DNA from: Deltaproteobacteria bacterium
GTDB taxonomy: Bacteria; Myxococcota; JACPTQ01
Direction of reading: 5' to 3'
DNA length: 64,000 nt
NCBI GenBank assembly: GCA_016192705.1
Contig: JACPTQ010000028.1
Span: 33,300-97,299, forward strand
Below the pieces are notes generated by a model. The model was not told the DNA's origin, made no database searches, and saw only the letters and a program-made list of their open reading frames with translations. Position 1 is the first letter of the stretch; every line of letters begins with the position of its first letter. Below are positions 18,711-29,657 of this stretch, piece by piece. Made by a program: the position numbers and the translations under genes.

Positions 18711-21700
18711 TTAGTTACAGAAATCGATTCCTGCCGGCGACGCAGTGCCGATGGTCGATTGGGTCACAACTTGCTCGGGCATCACATTGCCGGTCGCGGT
18801 GCGCTTGAACGCCGTGACGGTGTGGTTGTCGCTCGTTGCGATGATTTGGTCCGCCCAGGGATCGTAATGCAAACCCCGTACGCCCGAAAACCGCGTGGCC
18901 GGGCCAGAGATCCGCCGAAGCGGAACAGCCGCGCCGGCGGCGTCACGGGAGAACGTCCATATCGTGTTGCCGCCGGCGACGAAAAGCTCGTTGTGTGCCG
19001 AGTCGATCGCGACGGCGCGGGGTGAGACGCCTGTAATGAGGCGGAGGGGCTGCTCGGTGCCGTCGGCGGTGCGCCGATAGACTTCGACCACATCGGTGTT
19101 CGCGACGAACAGTTCATCGCGCTGAATGTCGACCGCCAGCGCCGAGGGATAGCGAAGCGTGGTGGACGACGGACGGTGAATTCGGCGAATGGGCGCGACG
19201 GTGCCGTTTGCGCCAAGCGGGTAGACCGTTATGGTGCTCTCCCACTCAAAGTTATTTGCGACGAAGAGTTCGCCATGCGCCTTATCGATTGCGATCCCGT
19301 ACGGCGTGGCGAGCCGGGTCGAGGTTCCGCCGAACGTGCGAAGCGGGAAGGCGTTGCCGCTGGCGGCTTTGTCGTGCACCACGAAATACGGATCGACGTT
19401 GCGCAGCAGGAAGAGTTCGTTGTTGGTGTTGTCGAGCCGAACGCCGTAGCCGCCTGAAATCAGCGTCGCGGGGCCCTCGATGGTGTTGAGAGGTGTCGAG
19501 CTTGCGGTGTCAAGCGACCATTCGTGGATTCGCGCGCCTGAATTGTACGAATAGACGCGTCGAGTGGCGAAGTCGATGCCAACGTCGTGAATCCCGGAGC
19601 CGCTGATCCTCTGCTCGGTGAGCGGCGTCGCCCCTCCCGACGCAGTGAGTGGAAAGCGGAAAAAGTGAGAGTAAGCGAAATAGAACCCGCCGTCGGAGAG
19701 CATTACAACGACGAGTTCGTTTGTCGCGGGATTGGCGTAGACGCCCCAAGGCTGATTCACGCGCGTGATCGTACGGAGGCGCGGCGCGAAGCCCGTCGCT
19801 GTGCGGCTGTACACGCGGACCGCGTTCGCACTTTGACGCGACACGAAGATTTCATTGTTAACCGTGTCGACCGAAATGCTGCCCGAGGACCGGTTGGTGC
19901 TCGCGAAGTCGTCCGAAATGGTGCGAAGCGGCGCGACATTGCCGCTCGCTGTGCGCGGATAAACGGTGACGGAGCGATCGTTTGCGACGAGGAGTTCGTT
20001 GTTGACGGTGTCGACGGCGACGGCGGATGCGCGAAAGAGGCCGGTCTTCGACCCGACCAAGCGGCGGATGGGGACCGTGGCGCCTTCTGCGGCGCGCGCG
20101 AAAACGAGAACCGCGTCGTCGTTCGCAACGAAGAGTTCATCGTTGACCGCGTCGATGGTGAATCCCACGGCGTTCTCGAGCCCGCGCTCGCCGTCCCAAA
20201 TCCGGCGCGTTGGCACCGTCGATCCATTGGACGCAATCGGGTAAACAGCGACCACGGGTTTGACCGAAGTCCCCCCAGGGCTCGACACGTAAATCTCGCC
20301 CGCCTCTCGATCGACGGCGATGCCGCGTGGTCCGAGCATGAGTGACTCTTCGGAGAAAATCGTTCGAAGGGGCGTCGCGTTTCCGTCGGCCGTTCGCGCG
20401 AACGTAGCGACGACGCTCGCGCCCGCGATCGTTAGCTCGCCGCTTGCCGAGTCGATCGCAACACCATATCGCTGCTCGGTGCCGCGGAACCCGCCGTAAA
20501 TCCTGCGAACGACGGAGTCTGTATAGCCGCCTGCGCCGCGCGCGAACACCGTCGTCGCGGAGTAAGGCCCGCCCGCTTCGTTATCGAGGTAGTTGACGAC
20601 ATAGAGTTCGCCGTTCGTGGGGTCGACCGCGACGCCGCGCGGGTCAAAAACTTTGTTCGTCAGGTTTTGAAGCGGCGCGGTATTTCCATTTGCGGTCCTT
20701 GCGAAGACCCCGACCGTTTTCGGATTCGCGCCACGGTTCGCGACGATGAGTTCGTTGTTGGTCGTATCGACCGCGACGCCCCATGGGTTCACGAGCTTCG
20801 TTGCCGTTCCCGTGAGGATCCGTTTAGCGAGCGTGTTGCCGCTCGCGTCGAGATCGAAGACGACAACCGACGTCGCCGCGCCATTTGCGACGACGATTTC
20901 TCGATTGACAGAATCGATGGCGATGCCTTGAGGCGAGTAGAGTCCCGTTTGTGCGCCGACGATGGTGCGAAGCGGGGCGGTGTCTCCGCTCGCGGTGCGA
21001 TTGAAAACCAAAACCGAGTTCGAGCCTTTGTTCGAAACGGCGATGATCCCGAGCGACGGGGCGACGGCGACGGCTTCGGGTTGATTGAGGAGCGTTGCGG
21101 CGCCGCGGAGTTTTCGAATCGGCACGGAGCGGCCATCGGAATCGCGCGAGAACACGAAGATTTCGTTGTTGCCCGTGTGTGCAACAAAGATTTCGTTATT
21201 CACGGAATCGACGGCGACACCGCGCACGTCGCCCATCGGCTGATCGAAGAACCCAAACTTTCGCACCAGCGCGCCCTCGCCCAAAACGGTCGTCACCTTG
21301 TTATCTCCCGCGCCGGCAAAGCAGAACTCGCGGCCGTGTACGGCGCGAACCTCGACCGACGGGAGGCTCTCGGCCGATTCGCGCAAGGCCGTGACGATGT
21401 AATAGGTGATCGATTTTCCCGAGAGTCCCGTGTCGGTGAGTGCGAGACCGGACGTTTCGCCGAGGACGCTGTACGGGCCGCCGCTGACGGTTGCCCGCGA
21501 AACTTTGTACCTCGTCGCGCCGGTCGACGCGGCCCACGAAACGGTCGCCGTTCCGTTGCCGGGATTCGCCATAACGCCGATCGGCGCAAGCGGTGCAACG
21601 ACGAGCGAGACTTCGAGCGAATACGCGCTCTCGCCGGCTGCGTTTCTTCCGGTCACGACGTAGTGGTTCGTTGTTCCCGCGCGCCCGGTGTCGGTGAACG

Positions 21701-24140
21701 TTGTCGTCGATGCCGATGAGGTCGTCGTGCGGAGCGTGTAGGGGCCGCCGCTTGTGGTCGCACGATAAACTTTGGACGATGTCGCGGCCGTCGGGACAGT
21801 CCACGAGACGATTGCTTCGCCAACGCCGCCTGCAGCGACTTGAACGTCGGTCGGTGCGCCGGGCGCAACCGTCGCCGCGCGTTCGGTCGACATAGCGCTT
21901 TCGCCGCCGGCATTCAGTGCCGTGACGACATAGTAATAGGTGGTGCCGTCCGTGAGGCCGGTATCGGTGTACGTCCTCGTGGCCTGTTCGGTGACGAGTG
22001 CGTATTCGCTCCCCGATGTGACCGATCGGTAAACTTTGTAGCTCGTAGCGCCCGTGCTCAACCCCCACGACAACGCGACTTGGCGGACGCCGGGTGTTGC
22101 CATCGGCGGTGGTGGTGCAGATGGCGCAAACGTAAGCCCGACTTGGTTGGAGTTCGAGCTCGCACTCGTGCCGTTGAGTGATTTGACGACCCAGTAGAGC
22201 GCGTAGCCGTAGTTTCCGATGTCGGTATAGGTCGGTGCCGTCGTCGTCGCCCAGTACGTATATGGGCCGCCATCAACAAACGAATAGTAGACATTGTTGC
22301 TCGAGGTGCCGAACGGGGCGGTCCATGTCAAAACGGCTTCGCCAGCGTCCCCCGGCCTCACGGCGAGGTCTGTCGGCGCATCGGGCGCGATGCGGACCGC
22401 GCGCTGGAGCGACGGGAGTCCTTCGCCACCATCGTTAACCGCCGAGACGACGTAGTAATAGGTCGACCCCGAGGGCAGGCCATCTTGCACGAACGACGTT
22501 GTCACGGTGCTCCCGGCGTCGTCGTACGGGCCTCCATCGATTTCCGAGCGGAAGACTCGGTAGCTCGCGGCGCCGTACGGTCTGGTCCACGTGAGCGTCG
22601 CGGTGCCGCCGTCCGGCGTCGCTGTGACGATGGGTCGGCTCGGAGGAATCGTGGTGGTCACTTCGTTCGTGTAGTTTGACCAGAACGTCGCACCGGCGTC
22701 GCCGACGGTGATCGCCCGCACGCGGTACCGATATTCGTAGCCGGCCGCGGAGCCCCATTCGATCGATGTCGCGCCGGCGTTGGTGACTCTGACCTGCTGG
22801 AAAACACGGATGCCGCCATACATCCTCTCAAACGCGAAGCCGGTTTCGTTGTCGCTGTTATCGGTCCACGACAGATTGACCAAATAGGATGTACCGGCGT
22901 TGCTAGGCGCGCCGAGCGTCGCCGTGAGTCCGGTTGGCGCGGCGGGCGCGTATTCGCAAGACCCGCAGCTCTCAACGGTTCGCGTGGCGCCGCAGTTGTC
23001 GACGGCGGTGAGGCTGCCGCAGCCGCGGCCGTTGCGTGCACAGAAGGCGGTGTCGGACTCGGCGATGCAAGCGCAGGTGTTGTTCGGTTGGCACGTCGCG
23101 GGTGTTGTGCAATGCCCGCAATCGGCGACGGTGCGCGCGACGCCACAGTTGTCGGGGGCGGTCTTTGAGCCACAGATGGCGCTCGTGCGCGCACAGAAGG
23201 CGAGATCCGTTTCGGGCGCGCAGACGCACTGATTATTGGCGTCGCACCTCTCCAAGGTTCCGCACGTGCCGCACGACTGGACAGTGCGCGGGTTGCCGCA
23301 GTTATCGAGCGCGGCGAATTGGCCACACGCTTTTCCGAGGCGCGCGCACAGCGCCGTGTCCATCTCCGGCACGCACGGCGGAGCCGATGGGGGTGGCGTT
23401 AATCCGGCGTCTTGTAGAGGAGTGCCAGCGTCAAGTTCGGCGCCTCCGTCGGTTGGCCCAGCCCCACCGCCGTCTTCACCGCCGCCGCCGTTGCCTCCGC
23501 CGTCCCCGCTCCCGGTTCCGCCGCCGTTCCCACCGCCGGTTCCGCCTCCATCCGAATCGCCGCCGCCGCCCGTTCCCGCGTCCGGAACAAGGTTTTCCCC
23601 GACCCGGCACAAAACCCCCGGCGCGCAATCGAGCGTCAGCGTGATGGTTATCGCATTCGGTGAGAAATCGAGCGCACGCCCCAGATCATCCACGTTCACC
23701 GACGCGACCGCGATCACATCGACGGCGCCATTCACGAGCCGCCACACGCGCGCGCGCAATGTGAGGTCGTCGCCAATTGGCGCGCTGCGCAGCGCGAATC
23801 GCCACTCGTCGCCCGCAGCCCACGGATTCACGTCGGCCCAAAACCGGACTTCGCGAAAGCCATCGGCATCAACGTCGACAAACGATCGCGAAATCGTCGC
23901 GCCATCCGTCGCCGACGCCGCCTCCGCTTCAGGGAGCGCCTTTTCGGACAGGCCGTCGGTCTTCCCATTTTTCGAATCGATTACGACATCCCAGCCAGAA
24001 ATCTCGTTCCGAAGCGCGAAGTCGGTCGGCAGCCGGGTGACCACCTCGATGGCGAACGTCTGCGCAAGTGGGTTCTCCGCGCACCTCATTGCAACAAATC
24101 CGAGACAACACATAAGTGCTCTGTACGTCGATGTCTTCAT
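18711..24140 (-). CDS. Giant composite lipoprotein: new N-terminal domain, Cys modules, six FN3 and NHL-like propellers
   Basis: Start at ATG 24140 (MKTSTYRALMCCLGFVAMRC) is preferred over 24200 because it begins the signal sequence; Cys20 may be lipidated although the lipobox is imperfect. The 1,809-aa protein has these parts in order: residues 29-178, a domain also found twice in the lipoprotein at 50069-53710; a Gly/Asp-rich linker; three Cys-rich repeats of about 48 aa (ALCARLGKACGQFAALDNCG type, nt about 23380-22960); six fibronectin type III domains (nt about 22960-21330, each with SWTxPxGxxSYxVYR and YYYVVTAxN cores); and an array of about 16 NHL-like propeller blades (nt 21300-18711) with IAVDxxNNELFVAN and VFxRTASGNxAPLR units. 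It is predicted to be a cell-surface adhesion or binding protein; its ligand is unknown. The frame is intact. Confidence 0.85.
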   Translation of the reverse strand: MKTSTYRALMCCLGFVAMRCAENPLAQTFAIEVVTRLPTDFALRNEISGWDVVIDSKNGKTDGLSEKALPEAEAASATDGATISRSFVDVDADGFREVRFWADVNPWAAGDEWRFALRSAPIGDDLTLRARVWRLVNGAVDVIAVASVNVDDLGRALDFSPNAITITLTLDCAPGVLCRVGENLVPDAGTGGGGDSDGGGTGGGNGGGTGSGDGGGNGGGGEDGGGAGPTDGGAELDAGTPLQDAGLTPPPSAPPCVPEMDTALCARLGKACGQFAALDNCGNPRTVQSCGTCGTLERCDANNQCVCAPETDLAFCARTSAICGSKTAPDNCGVARTVADCGHCTTPATCQPNNTCACIAESDTAFCARNGRGCGSLTAVDNCGATRTVESCGSCEYAPAAPTGLTATLGAPSNAGTSYLVNLSWTDNSDNETGFAFERMYGGIRVFQQVRVTNAGATSIEWGSAAGYEYRYRVRAITVGDAGATFWSNYTNEVTTTIPPSRPIVTATPDGGTATLTWTRPYGAASYRVFRSEIDGGPYDDAGSTVTTSFVQDGLPSGSTYYYVVSAVNDGGEGLPSLQRAVRIAPDAPTDLAVRPGDAGEAVLTWTAPFGTSSNNVYYSFVDGGPYTYWATTTAPTYTDIGNYGYALYWVVKSLNGTSASSNSNQVGLTFAPSAPPPPMATPGVRQVALSWGLSTGATSYKVYRSVTSGSEYALVTEQATRTYTDTGLTDGTTYYYVVTALNAGGESAMSTERAATVAPGAPTDVQVAAGGVGEAIVSWTVPTAATSSKVYRATTSGGPYTLRTTTSSASTTTFTDTGRAGTTNHYVVTGRNAAGESAYSLEVSLVVAPLAPIGVMANPGNGTATVSWAASTGATRYKVSRATVSGGPYSVLGETSGLALTDTGLSGKSITYYIVTALRESAESLPSVEVRAVHGREFCFAGAGDNKVTTVLGEGALVRKFGFFDQPMGDVRGVAVDSVNNEIFVAHTGNNEIFVFSRDSDGRSVPIRKLRGAATLLNQPEAVAVAPSLGIIAVSNKGSNSVLVFNRTASGDTAPLRTIVGAQTGLYSPQGIAIDSVNREIVVANGAATSVVVFDLDASGNTLAKRILTGTATKLVNPWGVAVDTTNNELIVANRGANPKTVGVFARTANGNTAPLQNLTNKVFDPRGVAVDPTNGELYVVNYLDNEAGGPYSATTVFARGAGGYTDSVVRRIYGGFRGTEQRYGVAIDSASGELTIAGASVVATFARTADGNATPLRTIFSEESLMLGPRGIAVDREAGEIYVSSPGGTSVKPVVAVYPIASNGSTVPTRRIWDGERGLENAVGFTIDAVNDELFVANDDAVLVFARAAEGATVPIRRLVGSKTGLFRASAVAVDTVNNELLVANDRSVTVYPRTASGNVAPLRTISDDFASTNRSSGSISVDTVNNEIFVSRQSANAVRVYSRTATGFAPRLRTITRVNQPWGVYANPATNELVVVMLSDGGFYFAYSHFFRFPLTASGGATPLTEQRISGSGIHDVGIDFATRRVYSYNSGARIHEWSLDTASSTPLNTIEGPATLISGGYGVRLDNTNNELFLLRNVDPYFVVHDKAASGNAFPLRTFGGTSTRLATPYGIAIDKAHGELFVANNFEWESTITVYPLGANGTVAPIRRIHRPSSTTLRYPSALAVDIQRDELFVANTDVVEVYRRTADGTEQPLRLITGVSPRAVAIDSAHNELFVAGGNTIWTFSRDAAGAAVPLRRISGPATRFSGVRGLHYDPWADQIIATSDNHTVTAFKRTATGNVMPEQVVTQSTIGTASPAGIDFCN

Positions 24141-24373
24141 AATCCCCACTCTTGGCGCGGAAAACCGGTCCGAATCCGCGTCTCGTCTGAATATGAGCAA
24201 GCGTTGGACCCGACGCGGGCCGGTTCGAATCGCTCAATCTCTTACGGTTTTTTTGATTCAGCTGACTCATTTCCAGATGCTCTGATTAGATGAGAATGAA
24301 CCCGTTAGAAAAATGTGCGCGCCTCACTCAGATGTATGAAAATCCGATCCCCGGTTGAGCGGCCAAAACCAGC

Positions 24374-24690: not shown

Positions 24691-25899
24691 ATGTCGGGCA
24701 CGCTTCCTTTTGTTCGCGGATTTGAGTTCAGTGCGGTTGCAGCTGGCATCAAGAAGTCGGGCGCGCTCGACATGGGCCTCATCCACTGCGAGGCCTCGGC
24801 GACCTCTGCGGCGGTCTTTACGCAAAACCTGGTGCGGGCGGCGCCGGTCGTGGTGTCGGAGGTACGCGCGAAGAAGGGGCGATGTCGGGCGGTGCTCGCG
24901 AACAGCGGCAATGCGAACGCGTGCACGGGCGAAGACGGTGTGCGCGATGTTGAGACGTTAACCGCTGCGGTGGCGCGTGGAATTGGCGATGAGCCTGCGG
25001 GTGTTTTGATGGCGTCGACGGGCGTTATCGGCGAGCGGCTTCCGGTCGACGTGATGATGCGCGCGGTGCCGGAATTGCTTTTGAGGCGGCGCGCGGACGG
25101 CGCGGGCGATTTTGCGCGATCGATTATGACGACCGACAAGTTTGAGAAGGTTGCGGTTGCGGAGGGGCGCGTTGGGCGACAGGATGTGCGTATCGTCGGG
25201 TGCGCGAAGGGCGCGGGGATGATCGCGCCGAACATGGCGACTATGCTTGGGTTTGTTTGGACCGATGCCGATGTCGACAATCTTTTTTTGCGCGAGGCGA
25301 CGGCCGCGGCGACCGATGCGACGTTCAACCGCATTGTCGTCGATGGCGACACGTCGACGAACGACATGGTCGTCGTGCTCGCGAGCGGTCGCGCGAACGG
25401 GCACGGGGGGAGCCCACTCCGCGAGTCGGGACGCGGTGGGGGCGCGGCGTTCGAGGAACTGCTTCGGCGCGTGATGATGCCGCTCGCGAAGGCGATTGTG
25501 AAGGACGGCGAAGGCGCGACGCATGTCGTTGAGATCCGTGTCGAGGGCGCGGCAAGCGACAAAGACGCGCGGTTGATTGCGCGGCGAATCGCGGAGTCAC
25601 CTCTCGTCAAGACCGCGTTTCATGGGTGCGACCCAAATTGGGGGCGACTCCTCGCGGCGGCGGGGCGCGCCGGGGTTCCGGTTCGGCCGGACGGCATGGC
25701 GATTAAGGTGGGGGGCGTTGCGATCGTAAAGCGGGGTGTGGGGCTCGGCAAGGAACGCGAGAGCGAGGCGAAGGCGATTATGCGCGGGGCCGAATATGTG
25801 GTTGAGGTTGATGTTGGGGTTGGCAAAGGCCGGGCGGAGGTGGTGACGTGCGACTTTTCGGAAGAGTACGTGCGAATCAACGGCTCGTATCGATCGTAG
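24691..25899 (+). CDS. argJ: Bifunctional glutamate N-acetyltransferase / ornithine acetyltransferase
   Basis: This cytoplasmic enzyme cycles the acetyl group between N-acetylornithine and glutamate in arginine synthesis. The 402-aa precursor contains the self-cleavage site KGAGMIAPNMATML, where Thr184 becomes the nucleophile of the beta chain. It also has LANSGNANACTG (oxyanion region) and the terminal signature INGSYRS, so both chains are complete. Whether it retains acetyl-CoA activity cannot be read from sequence. The last 52 nt overlap the next gene, a lipoprotein of the M18 fold. Confidence 0.95.
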   Translation: MSGTLPFVRGFEFSAVAAGIKKSGALDMGLIHCEASATSAAVFTQNLVRAAPVVVSEVRAKKGRCRAVLANSGNANACTGEDGVRDVETLTAAVARGIGDEPAGVLMASTGVIGERLPVDVMMRAVPELLLRRRADGAGDFARSIMTTDKFEKVAVAEGRVGRQDVRIVGCAKGAGMIAPNMATMLGFVWTDADVDNLFLREATAAATDATFNRIVVDGDTSTNDMVVVLASGRANGHGGSPLRESGRGGGAAFEELLRRVMMPLAKAIVKDGEGATHVVEIRVEGAASDKDARLIARRIAESPLVKTAFHGCDPNWGRLLAAAGRAGVPVRPDGMAIKVGGVAIVKRGVGLGKERESEAKAIMRGAEYVVEVDVGVGKGRAEVVTCDFSEEYVRINGSYRS

Positions 25900-27233
25900 T
25901 GGGCGTCGTCGTCGCCTCGACGTTGCTTGGCGGATGCGCAAGCCGTCCTCCGACCGGTGTGAGGGGCGCGCTCGTGCCGACGCCGATTGCGGCGCTTTTC
26001 GACACGGCGAAAAATCGCACCGAGCTCGATCGATTCGCGAAGGCGTACGTCGACTTCGTGACGGCGGCAAAGACGGAGCGCCTCGTGGTGCATCGGCTTT
26101 CGCGTCGCGCGGACAAAGCACCCGTCGCACCTCTTCCCGCGCGCGCGGGTGGACCCGGATCGCTCTACGCGCTCTCATCGCGCGGGAAAGCGCTCGCGCT
26201 TGTTGCGATTGGGAAGCGCCCGATTTCTGCGGGGCTGAACGTGCTCATGGCGTCGATCGACGCGCCGGCCCTTGGCCTCAAGCAAAACGCGCTCTACGCG
26301 AAACAACGGTTCGCGCTTTTCGACACGTGGTTTCGTGGGCCGCTCGCGGAGCATCGTTGGTTGTCGGTGCCCCTCGCACTTTACGGATTCGTCGCGCGCG
26401 ATGCGGGCGATGCGGCGCACATTCAGGTGGGCGATGGCCCGAACGACCCGGTGTTTGTGGTGCCCGACTTGTTGCCGCACCTCTCGGCGACGGCTCAGGC
26501 GAAGCGGATTATCGAACCCGAAGAGACCGACGCGATCGCGGGCCACGGCGCCGTTCGGAAGGTCGCGAAGATGCTGGCTCGGCGCCACGGTGTTCGTGCG
26601 GACGAGTTCGAGCACGCCGAGTTGTCGCTCGTGCCCGCCGGCCCCGCGCGATTCATCGGCGTCGATCGCGCGTTCGTCGCCGGTTATGGCCATTCGGCGC
26701 GCGCCGCGGCGTTTGCCTTCGTTCGTGCGCTCGAGGGCGTTGTTCCCGCGCGCACGACGGTGGTCGCACTTGTCGGCGCCGCAAATGGCGATGCGCACGG
26801 AAACGTTGGTCTCGCCTTTGTGCGACACGCCGTTGGCCAGGTTCAATTGGCGCTTCGAGAAACGGGCGACGCCGGCGAGCCGGACGAACCGGCCCTTCGC
26901 CGAATTCTCGCGCGAAGCCTTGTCGTCGTTGCGGAGCCGTCGGGCGGCGCACTCGCTCACGGCCTCGTCCTGAATCAGGTTCAAGACGATGGGTTCCCGG
27001 ACGCATTTCAAAAAGTTCTCGGTGCGTTTCGCCGCGATCGCGTCCCGTTTCAGATTTCGCACAAATGGGTCAAATGGCCAGTCCTCGCGCGCGAAGTGAC
27101 AGCCTGGAACGTTGACGCCGTCGGGTTGTCGATCCCCGTCTCTGATGTTGGCGCGCCGATCGAAATGGTTTCGACCGTGGATTTGTACGGGCTTTTCGCG
27201 GCGGCTCGCGCGATCGTGAGGCACGTCGAATGA
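25848..27233 (+). CDS. Lipoprotein pseudo-aminopeptidase, M18-like fold without metal ligands
   Basis: GTG 25848 is preceded by GGAGG (25836-25840) and lies inside argJ. The 461-aa product has a clear lipoprotein signal, VVVASTLLGGC with Cys30. Its length and order of segments parallel the M18-type protein encoded next door, but every metal or catalytic position differs. HVD becomes Ser136-Ile-Asp (LMASIDAP), QDD becomes His282-Ser-Ala (AGYGHSARA), the REEVGS loop becomes AANGDAHG, and the late MHAAF is lost. It is therefore probably inactive and may act as a scaffold or inhibitor of its partner. The assignment to M18 rests on paralogy with the downstream gene. The stop overlaps that gene's ATG (ATGA), so the two are co-translated. 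Confidence 0.75.
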   Translation: MRLFGRVRANQRLVSIVVGVVVASTLLGGCASRPPTGVRGALVPTPIAALFDTAKNRTELDRFAKAYVDFVTAAKTERLVVHRLSRRADKAPVAPLPARAGGPGSLYALSSRGKALALVAIGKRPISAGLNVLMASIDAPALGLKQNALYAKQRFALFDTWFRGPLAEHRWLSVPLALYGFVARDAGDAAHIQVGDGPNDPVFVVPDLLPHLSATAQAKRIIEPEETDAIAGHGAVRKVAKMLARRHGVRADEFEHAELSLVPAGPARFIGVDRAFVAGYGHSARAAAFAFVRALEGVVPARTTVVALVGAANGDAHGNVGLAFVRHAVGQVQLALRETGDAGEPDEPALRRILARSLVVVAEPSGGALAHGLVLNQVQDDGFPDAFQKVLGAFRRDRVPFQISHKWVKWPVLAREVTAWNVDAVGLSIPVSDVGAPIEMVSTVDLYGLFAAARAIVRHVE

Positions 27234-28624
27234 CGGCCCTCTTCGCAGCGACGATTGCGCTCATTTCGCAAGCGGCGCCGCCCGCCGATTTCGGGCGACA
27301 CTACATGGCGTTTCTCGACGCGGCGAAAACACCGCGGCTCTTGGTTCGCGAAGTCGCCCGCGAGGCCGCGACGCGTGGATTTCGTGTGCGAGATGTTTTT
27401 GACGCTCCGACCCCCGCGAAGCCGGGCGACCGCTTGATGTTCGTGTCGCGCGAACGATCGATTGCCTTGGTCGTGGTGGGCCGTGCGCCGGTGACGACTG
27501 GCTTTCGCCTCGTCGGAACGCACGTCGACACACCGAAATTTCGCGTGGTGCAGCGACCCATCGTTGTGACCGACGGGCGCGTCGCGCTTCGCACGGTGTT
27601 TCACGGCGGTATCAAGGAGTACCAGTGGTGGACGCGGCCGCTCGCGCTTGTCGGGACGGTTCATCGTGCCGACGGGAAGGAGGTCGATGTTGCGCTCGGG
27701 CTCAAAGACGAAACGTCGTTTGCAATGGGAACGTGGACGTCGACAGGGGTTCCAGGCAAGGTTGGTCGCAAAGACCCTTGGGCCGGATGGGCGCGCGAAT
27801 ACGACGTCGTTGTTGCTGGATTCCCAAAGGGCGGAACGTCTGGCGACCCGAAAGGCGCGTTTCTAAAGGTTCTTGGGGACCGGTTTGGGGTTGTCGAGGG
27901 CGATCTCGATTCGAGCGAACTTTACTTTGTTCCCGTGCAGACGGCACGGTGGGTCGGTGTTGGCGAGCGCCTCGTGGGTGGTTTTGGGCAGGACGACAAG
28001 GCTTGTTCGTACGCTGCGGCGCGGGCGGCGATCGACCTCGACGTTGTTCCTGAGAAAACGGTTATCGCGTTTTTGACCGACCGTGAGGAGGTTGGCTCGA
28101 CCGGGCCGTCGGGCGCCGCGTCGGAGTGGATCGACGCGCTCATTGCGCACCTTATTGTGGCGACGCGATCGAACCCATCGAAGGATCGCCCTGTCTTTGA
28201 GACCGAGGTGCGGACGGCCTTCGTTCAGGCTGAGGTTTTGTCGTCCGACGTCACAGCGGGCGTCAACCCGCTGTTCCCGCGTGTCCATGAGCTTCGAAAC
28301 GCGGCGCGCCTCGGGAAGGGACCCGCGATGATGAAGTGGACCGGTCGCGGTGGGAAGTTCGGCGGGTCCGATGCCCACGCCGAGTATGTCGATCGGGTTG
28401 TGCGGATTTTTGCCGAAGCGAAGGTCCCCCTGCAGATCGGGAACATTGGGCGCGTCGACGAAGGAGGCGGTGGAACCATCGCAAAGTTCATTGCGAACAA
28501 GGGCGCAAACGTCCTCGACCTTGGCATTCCGATGATTTCGATGCACGCCGCATTCGACGTGACGCACGTTCGAGACATCGAGAATCTCGCGCGCGGATTA
28601 CGTGCTTTTTTTGTAACAAAGTAG
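27230..28624 (+). CDS. M18-family aspartyl-type aminopeptidase
   Basis: This zinc aminopeptidase should remove N-terminal residues, acidic ones in most of the family. The 464-aa length is normal. Predicted ligands and catalytic residues are all present: His98/Asp100 in GTHVDTP, Asp255 in GFGQDDKA, Glu286-Glu287 in DREEVGS, Asp340 in SSDVTAG and His439 in PMISMHAAF. The N-terminus MTALFAATIALISQAAPPAD looks like a weak signal peptide without positive charge, so export is uncertain; M18 enzymes are usually cytoplasmic dodecamers. It is translationally coupled to the dead paralogue upstream. Confidence 0.88.
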   Translation: MTALFAATIALISQAAPPADFGRHYMAFLDAAKTPRLLVREVAREAATRGFRVRDVFDAPTPAKPGDRLMFVSRERSIALVVVGRAPVTTGFRLVGTHVDTPKFRVVQRPIVVTDGRVALRTVFHGGIKEYQWWTRPLALVGTVHRADGKEVDVALGLKDETSFAMGTWTSTGVPGKVGRKDPWAGWAREYDVVVAGFPKGGTSGDPKGAFLKVLGDRFGVVEGDLDSSELYFVPVQTARWVGVGERLVGGFGQDDKACSYAAARAAIDLDVVPEKTVIAFLTDREEVGSTGPSGAASEWIDALIAHLIVATRSNPSKDRPVFETEVRTAFVQAEVLSSDVTAGVNPLFPRVHELRNAARLGKGPAMMKWTGRGGKFGGSDAHAEYVDRVVRIFAEAKVPLQIGNIGRVDEGGGGTIAKFIANKGANVLDLGIPMISMHAAFDVTHVRDIENLARGLRAFFVTK

Positions 28625-28646: not shown

Positions 28647-29657
28647 ATGAATCGAATTAACTACCCCGATCGGGTAAAACTCGCATCAATGCCGACTCCG
28701 ATTGTGCGGCTTAACCATTGGTCACGTGAGCTCGGCGTCGACCTCTACGTAAAACACGACGACCGAACGGGCAGCGACCTTTCAGGCAACAAAGTTCGCA
28801 AACTTGAGTTCCACTTTGCCGAGGCGCAGGCGCGTGGGTGCGACGTCGTCGTCACGTGTGGCGGTGTTCAGTCGAACCACGCCCGAGCGACGGCGATTGC
28901 GGCACGCCAACTTGGGCTCGACGCTGTGCTCATTCTGCGGAGCCGAACGACACCGCCCGGCGGCGAACCGGTGGACGGCAACCTATTTCTTGACCGGCTC
29001 GTCGGTGCGCGCGTCGTCTGGGTGACGCCCGACGAATACCGATCGCGCGAAGCCGTTTATGAGCGGCTGGACGCCGAGCTTCGTCTTGCTGGGCGGACGC
29101 CTTACCTCATGCCGGAAGGCGGCTCGGACGAAGTCGGAGCGTGGGGGTACATCGCGGCGGTTGAGGAGATCGCCGCGCAGGAAAGCGAGATGGGCGTTCG
29201 GTTTGACGCGATCGTGCACGCGGTGGGCTCTGGCGGGACGACGGCCGGGCTTGTGCTTGGGACGAAACTCGCCGGGGTCGGGGCCGAGGTGCGTGGGTTC
29301 GCGGTTTGCGACGATACGGCGTACTTCGTTTCGCGCGTCATGTCGATCGTTGAGCGCACCGTCGATCGATACCAGCTTCGAATCCCGTTTTCGTCGAATG
29401 AGCTGCGCATCGACGACCGATACAAGGGCGTTGGGTACGCGTTGTCGCGCCCGGAGGAGATTTCGCTCATCAAGAGCGCCGCGCGGACCGACGGAATCAT
29501 TCTCGACCCTGTTTATACGGGCAAGGCTTTTTTCGGGATGGTTGACCTGATTCGTGCGGATCGGCTCTCATTTGGGCGTCGCGTGTTGTTTGTTCACACC
29601 GGGGGAATTTTTGGCCTGCTCGCGGCCACGTCAGATGTTGTTCCGTCGTTGGCATAG
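28647..29657 (+). CDS. D-cysteine desulfhydrase / ACC deaminase-family PLP enzyme
   Basis: ATG 28647 follows GGGAGG (28634-28639). The 336-aa product belongs to fold-type II PLP enzymes. SGNKVRKLEF holds the Schiff-base Lys, TCGGVQSNHARA is the next conserved segment, and VHAVGSGGTTAGLVLG binds the cofactor phosphate. The family includes D-cysteine desulfhydrase and 1-aminocyclopropane-1-carboxylate deaminase; sequence reading does not separate them, though D-cysteine desulfhydrase is the commoner bacterial activity. It is 22 nt downstream of the M18 gene, probably in the same transcript. Confidence 0.88.
   Translation: MNRINYPDRVKLASMPTPIVRLNHWSRELGVDLYVKHDDRTGSDLSGNKVRKLEFHFAEAQARGCDVVVTCGGVQSNHARATAIAARQLGLDAVLILRSRTTPPGGEPVDGNLFLDRLVGARVVWVTPDEYRSREAVYERLDAELRLAGRTPYLMPEGGSDEVGAWGYIAAVEEIAAQESEMGVRFDAIVHAVGSGGTTAGLVLGTKLAGVGAEVRGFAVCDDTAYFVSRVMSIVERTVDRYQLRIPFSSNELRIDDRYKGVGYALSRPEEISLIKSAARTDGIILDPVYTGKAFFGMVDLIRADRLSFGRRVLFVHTGGIFGLLAATSDVVPSLA

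Follow-up and report, generated by a model that had tools for sequence, protein, structure and literature searches.

The locus at 25848-28624 raises the question of why a dead M18 aminopeptidase homologue, apparently a lipoprotein, should be encoded directly ahead of, and overlapping with, an M18 homologue whose catalytic residues are intact. It lies in a window (the whole stretch of DNA that was analysed, 64,000 nucleotides) from a Myxococcota draft genome of 5.2 Mb in 88 contigs. The earlier note on this DNA had described a tandem M18 pair with an ATGA overlap; its coordinates are exact, and both proteins are found to be M18 members by Pfam as well as by NCBIfam. Gene A (25848-27233, forward strand, GTG start codon) encodes 461 amino acids and gene B (27230-28624, forward strand, ATG start codon) encodes 464, the stop of A and the start of B sharing the ATGA at 27230-27233 on the forward strand. 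This overlap makes translational coupling of the two genes likely, but the equal synthesis that had been read into it goes beyond what an overlap shows.

Upstream of the pair, argJ (24691-25899, forward strand; TIGR00120 / PF01960) overlaps A by 52 bases, and A does begin inside it, as was claimed. An alternative start of A at 25899 was rejected, as the hydrophobic run there has no preceding charged region; third-position GC separated the reading frames poorly across A and was set aside as evidence. The suggested tie to arginine metabolism is not supported. In a second genome carrying the pair, mutM and not argJ lies ahead of A, so that argJ adjoins the pair in the window only and the link is incidental. 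A gene for a D-cysteine desulfhydrase-like PLP enzyme (28647-29657, forward strand; family TIGR01275) follows 22 bases 3' of B and is probably on the same transcript as B; a function inferred from this enzyme was dropped, since the enzyme is not conserved beside the pair. Large NHL-type repeat proteins are encoded near the pair (18711-24200, reverse strand; 1829 amino acids, also with fn3 domains) and, at L025:7150-10530 on the reverse strand, near a further M18 gene of the same genome, C; the two repeat proteins look like paralogues by eye.

A and B match Pfam PF02127 at 8e-20 (71.5 bits) and 6e-57 (193.8 bits), respectively, with a cut-off of 24, and both are nearest to the ApeA/PRK02256 branch of M18. 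The scores against NCBIfam PRK02256, 195 bits for A (1.7e-57), 386.8 bits for B (1.1e-115) and 484 bits for C, are all under the curated cut-off of 529 bits, and the three proteins are thus relatives of ApeA and not equivalogs. The predicted monomer of A (pLDDT 71.6, pTM 0.75) has 2glf as its best fold match (E 1.5e-31, TM 0.73), and that of B, of modest confidence (pLDDT 62.5, pTM 0.71), also finds 2glf first (E 3.8e-29); for both models the top fold matches are M18 structures throughout. The M18 fold of A, on which the earlier proposal depended, is therefore present in a predicted model that matches M18 crystal structures. As both folds match M18 structures and the pair recurs in the second genome, the A-B pair is not a product of chance.

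Comparison with human DNPEP has shown that the di-metal ligands and the general base are replaced in A: His94 by Ser, Asp264 by Ser (with the next Asp changed to Ala), Glu301 by Ala, Glu302 by Asn, Asp346 by Glu and His440 by Gly, corresponding to S136, S283, A312, N313, E363 and G435 of A (26253-27152, forward strand, by alignment). The statement that His, Asp-Asp, Glu-Glu and the late His are all replaced in A was very nearly right, the exception being the Asp of the HxD motif, which A retains. Judged by the alignment, A is without a usable di-metal site. B retains all six residues (H98, D255, E286, E287, D340 and H439), as had been noted, and the full set of di-metal ligands and general base is also present in B of the second genome. 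Both proteins carry export signals, assigned from sequence patterns and not with a trained signal predictor. The N-terminus of A (25848-25937, forward strand) shows positive charge, then a hydrophobic run and then the lipobox LLGGC (Prosite-type pattern) ending in Cys30, which is expected to be lipidated; the corresponding lipobox in the second genome is AFAGC, and the description of A as a lipoprotein agrees with these matches. B begins with a probable cleavable signal peptide of weak positive charge, MTALFAATIALISQAAP (27230-27280, forward strand), which is clearer in the B orthologue of the second genome.

In human DNPEP, His170 sits at the tip of a loop from the opposing subunit, where it touches the carbonyl of the substrate and so completes the active site; the H170F substitution abolishes activity, and such a loop swap has been proposed to be general to the M18 and M42 dodecamers (PMC3472314). 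The numbering was checked: the His of LAIHLQR is located 76 residues past the first metal-ligand His (94 to 170), and LAIHLQR aligns with IPDLLPHL of ApeA. In A, the donor loop VPDLLPHLSATAQAKRI (26460-26510, forward strand) has the motif VPDLLPHLS with His211 (codon 26478-26480), which aligns to the loop histidine of six ApeA and five DAP proteins and is the equivalent of DNPEP His170; residues 208-237, which make up this loop, are of low confidence in the monomer prediction. On the other hand, the donor loop of B (27713-27793, forward strand, by alignment) is degenerate, with the histidine and the flanking ApeA-invariant residues gone and Thr or Gly at the His position, depending on the alignment. 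In B of the second genome Glu takes this position and the loop flanks are gone too. B thus lacks the trans-acting loop histidine (that of DNPEP His170) by which a homodimer or dodecamer would be self-sufficient, and since M18 dimers need the histidine of the neighbour, B is predicted not to be self-sufficient. The earlier note missed this loss, as well as the third exported paralogue C.

The reciprocal loss was scored at the 88 alignment columns that do not vary among six ApeA proteins, 7 of them in the loop and 18 catalytic. A keeps 6/7 loop residues in each of the two genomes (12/14), and only 1/18 catalytic residues in the window and 2/18 in the second genome (3/36). B, conversely, keeps 1/7 loop residues in the window and 0/7 in the second genome (1/14), with 18/18 and 16/18 catalytic residues (34/36). 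The reciprocal pattern gave Fisher p-values of 4e-4 and 3e-5 in the two genomes, the loop of A is kept above the rest of A (12/14 vs 58/126, p 0.009) and the loop of B below the rest of B (1/14 vs 90/126, p 4e-6), all of these p-values being descriptive because the columns are few and were treated as independent, though they are not independent by descent. The same figures bear on the view that A is a decaying pseudogene left by tandem duplication. Its catalytic residues are indeed lost, but the open frame, the export signal, the M18 fold and the selectively kept loop, together with the same loss pattern in the A orthologue of the second genome at only 27% identity, make this view scarcely credible.

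The loop histidine was also followed in a census of 59 distinct M18 proteins, later widened to 88, of the DAP and ApeA types from several phyla. The two B proteins are the only ones without it, and the two A proteins the only ones without the catalytic set; beyond these, the census showed one Glu302->Gly change, in C of the window's genome, and a single gene whose frame is truncated. Other phyla are represented among the 88, but many entries are DAPs from the same phylum and close relatives of one another, which makes the proteins less independent than their number suggests. It could be argued that B is active alone, another residue or water replacing the loop histidine, and that A is an inhibitor, a receptor or a decoy. 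Nearly all cis residues of B are kept through long divergence, and losing the loop is not in itself proof that B depends on a partner. However, the histidine is found in the other 86 M18 proteins, including two single, exported and catalytically intact ApeA-type enzymes from other phyla, one on the Granulicella plasmid pACIX901 (L091:5923-7362) and one in genome G303 (L124:3412-5088). This and the abolished activity of DNPEP H170F (PMC3472314) make activity of B alone very improbable.

The expectation that the pair would be conserved elsewhere was borne out in a second Myxococcota family, in the isolate Bin_71R (JAJVIH01, contig JAJVIH010000059.1; handles G006 and L024). The gene order there is mutM, A, B, C and lipid A acyltransferase, so that the three M18 genes form an A-B-C operon; A and B are orthologous to those of the window, and their genes overlap as ATGAATAG, an A/B overlap being common to both genomes. 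At L024:6204-8426, mutM (Fpg) and the dead A form a single open frame with no stop between them, which may be a real fusion, an internal start or an assembly error. C is a third exported M18 paralogue in both genomes and keeps the loop histidine in both. In the window's genome it is found at L025:5698-7128, on contig G000:C55 and thus apart from A-B (G000:C44), with one metal ligand altered (DKEGIGS, Glu302->Gly), a change that may be genuine or may stem from an error in sequencing; C of the second genome has the Glu302 site intact but lacks the GGGGT substrate loop. A lipid A acyltransferase gene (PF03279) is present near C both times (L025:693-1541, about 4 kb from C, and L024:11231-12190).

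In the tree, A, B and C each form one clade across both genomes (supports 100/99, 95/97 and 90/90), and hence the trio either existed before the two lineages diverged or was handed on as a unit. A is nearest to C (88/94), the deeper placement being unsure owing to long branches. Among 195 genomes of the phylum, the ApeA type occurs only in the window's genome and the second genome, which belong to different families and both have three copies, while the remaining genomes have at most an ordinary DAP. The search of assembled genome contigs for relatives returned only Bin_71R, the scan of viral contigs found none, and tblastn against plasmids gave single M18 genes only. In 384 sampled genomes of the same and other phyla, and in 51 genomes of three other phyla, no other case of an A-like protein next to an ApeA was found. 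The trio is accordingly known from two genomes, with monomer predictions as the support for the folds.

The presence of C opens other sources for the missing histidine, and C could be a partner of B in place of A or beside it. In one such arrangement the histidine for B would come from C, B-C particles would be the enzyme and A would act as a lipid anchor or assembly scaffold. C is exported, has its loop histidine in both genomes and shares one operon with A and B in the second genome. Yet the genes of A and B lie side by side and overlap in each of the two genomes, whereas C is on a separate contig in that of the window, and a mere anchor gives no reason for a loop of A conserved above the rest of the protein (p 0.009); this arrangement is possible though unlikely. 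It is distinctly unlikely that all three proteins mix in one A-tethered tetrahedral hetero-oligomer, in which the sites of B and C work and the loop of A is lent to one or both. The overlapping genes of the A-B-C operon would suit such a mixture, as would the drift of C (GGGGT lost in the second genome, Glu302->Gly in the window's genome), as if C were relieved of self-sufficiency. Against it, C is unlinked to A-B in the window's genome and, since it still carries the donor loop as well as most of the catalytic residues, may form a homo-oligomer of its own. A rather unlikely extension is a periplasmic or outer-membrane-tethered particle of three paralogues, where A would be the anchor and histidine donor, B would carry out the chemistry and C, its substrate loops altered, would add a second catalytic subunit or one that forms a channel. 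A is favoured over C as the donor on account of the above-background conservation of its loop and the constant A-B overlap.

We consider it moderately probable that A and B form an exported heterodimer anchored through A, in which the pseudoenzyme completes the active site of its partner in trans. A would be held to the membrane through its lipid, and B, once exported, would bind to A via the M18 dimer interface. The loop of A with His211 would then enter the di-metal site of B and act there like DNPEP His170, which binds the carbonyl of the scissile bond and stabilises the tetrahedral intermediate, while B would perform the metal chemistry. With no functional site in A and no loop histidine on offer from B, one working site per A-B dimer is predicted; A-A dimers should be inactive for want of metals and B-B dimers for want of the loop histidine. 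The dimers may or may not form the usual 12-subunit tetrahedron. An exported M18 enzyme of this kind would presumably shorten peptides in the periplasm or on the cell surface. The earlier note had suggested a membrane-anchored pseudoenzyme that recruits or gates an active peptidase. The dead lipoprotein beside its partner stands, but shared catalysis is the better fit, because B has lost the very loop histidine that M18 subunits exchange and A has kept it. From the sequence pattern, A probably contributes half of an active site divided between the two proteins, and recruiting or gating would not be its main role.

The best sequence and fold matches of the pair are the ApeA family and its structures (PRK02256; 2glf, 2glj, 1y7e), which share the fold, the length, the catalytic motifs of B and C and the loop histidine of A and C. 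In nearly all genomes examined, ApeA is a cytosolic protein; it is encoded by one gene and unites the cis residues with the loop histidine, whereas here three exported paralogues are found, of which one is dead and one is without the loop histidine. In the heterododecameric TET of family M42 both subunit types are reportedly active enzymes, unlike in A-B, which has one dead subunit. TET itself is a related tetrahedral aminopeptidase with mixed subunits (PMC4220976). Human DNPEP (3var, 4dyo), from which the loop-swap mechanism applied here originates with its essential His170 of the opposing subunit (PMC3472314), is a homododecamer where each subunit both gives and receives; in the A-B pair, the sequences predict that these roles are divided over two proteins. 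In its proposed logic, the pair resembles the mitochondrial processing peptidase and the bacterial two-gene M16B enzymes, in which an active zinc subunit is joined by a dead homologue supplying an essential element (PMC11266112); in A-B, the sequences show the reciprocal loss that such complementation would require. Those enzymes are endopeptidases of family M16 with an unrelated fold, whereas A-B belongs to M18 and is exported and, by prediction, lipid-anchored.

No M18 dead/active pair was found in the literature covered, from which most subscription journals were absent, and M18 is absent from a 2024 review of pseudometallopeptidases. If the proposal is true, this would be, as per the literature searched, the first M18 enzyme with its swapped-loop active site divided between two genes, and the A-B pair would offer a clean natural test of loop-swap essentiality across M18 and M42. 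It would also be an example of a pseudoenzyme becoming indispensable, each partner having lost what the other supplies, and of the relocation to the cell envelope of a peptidase type that is cytosolic for the most part, with the dead subunit as its anchor.
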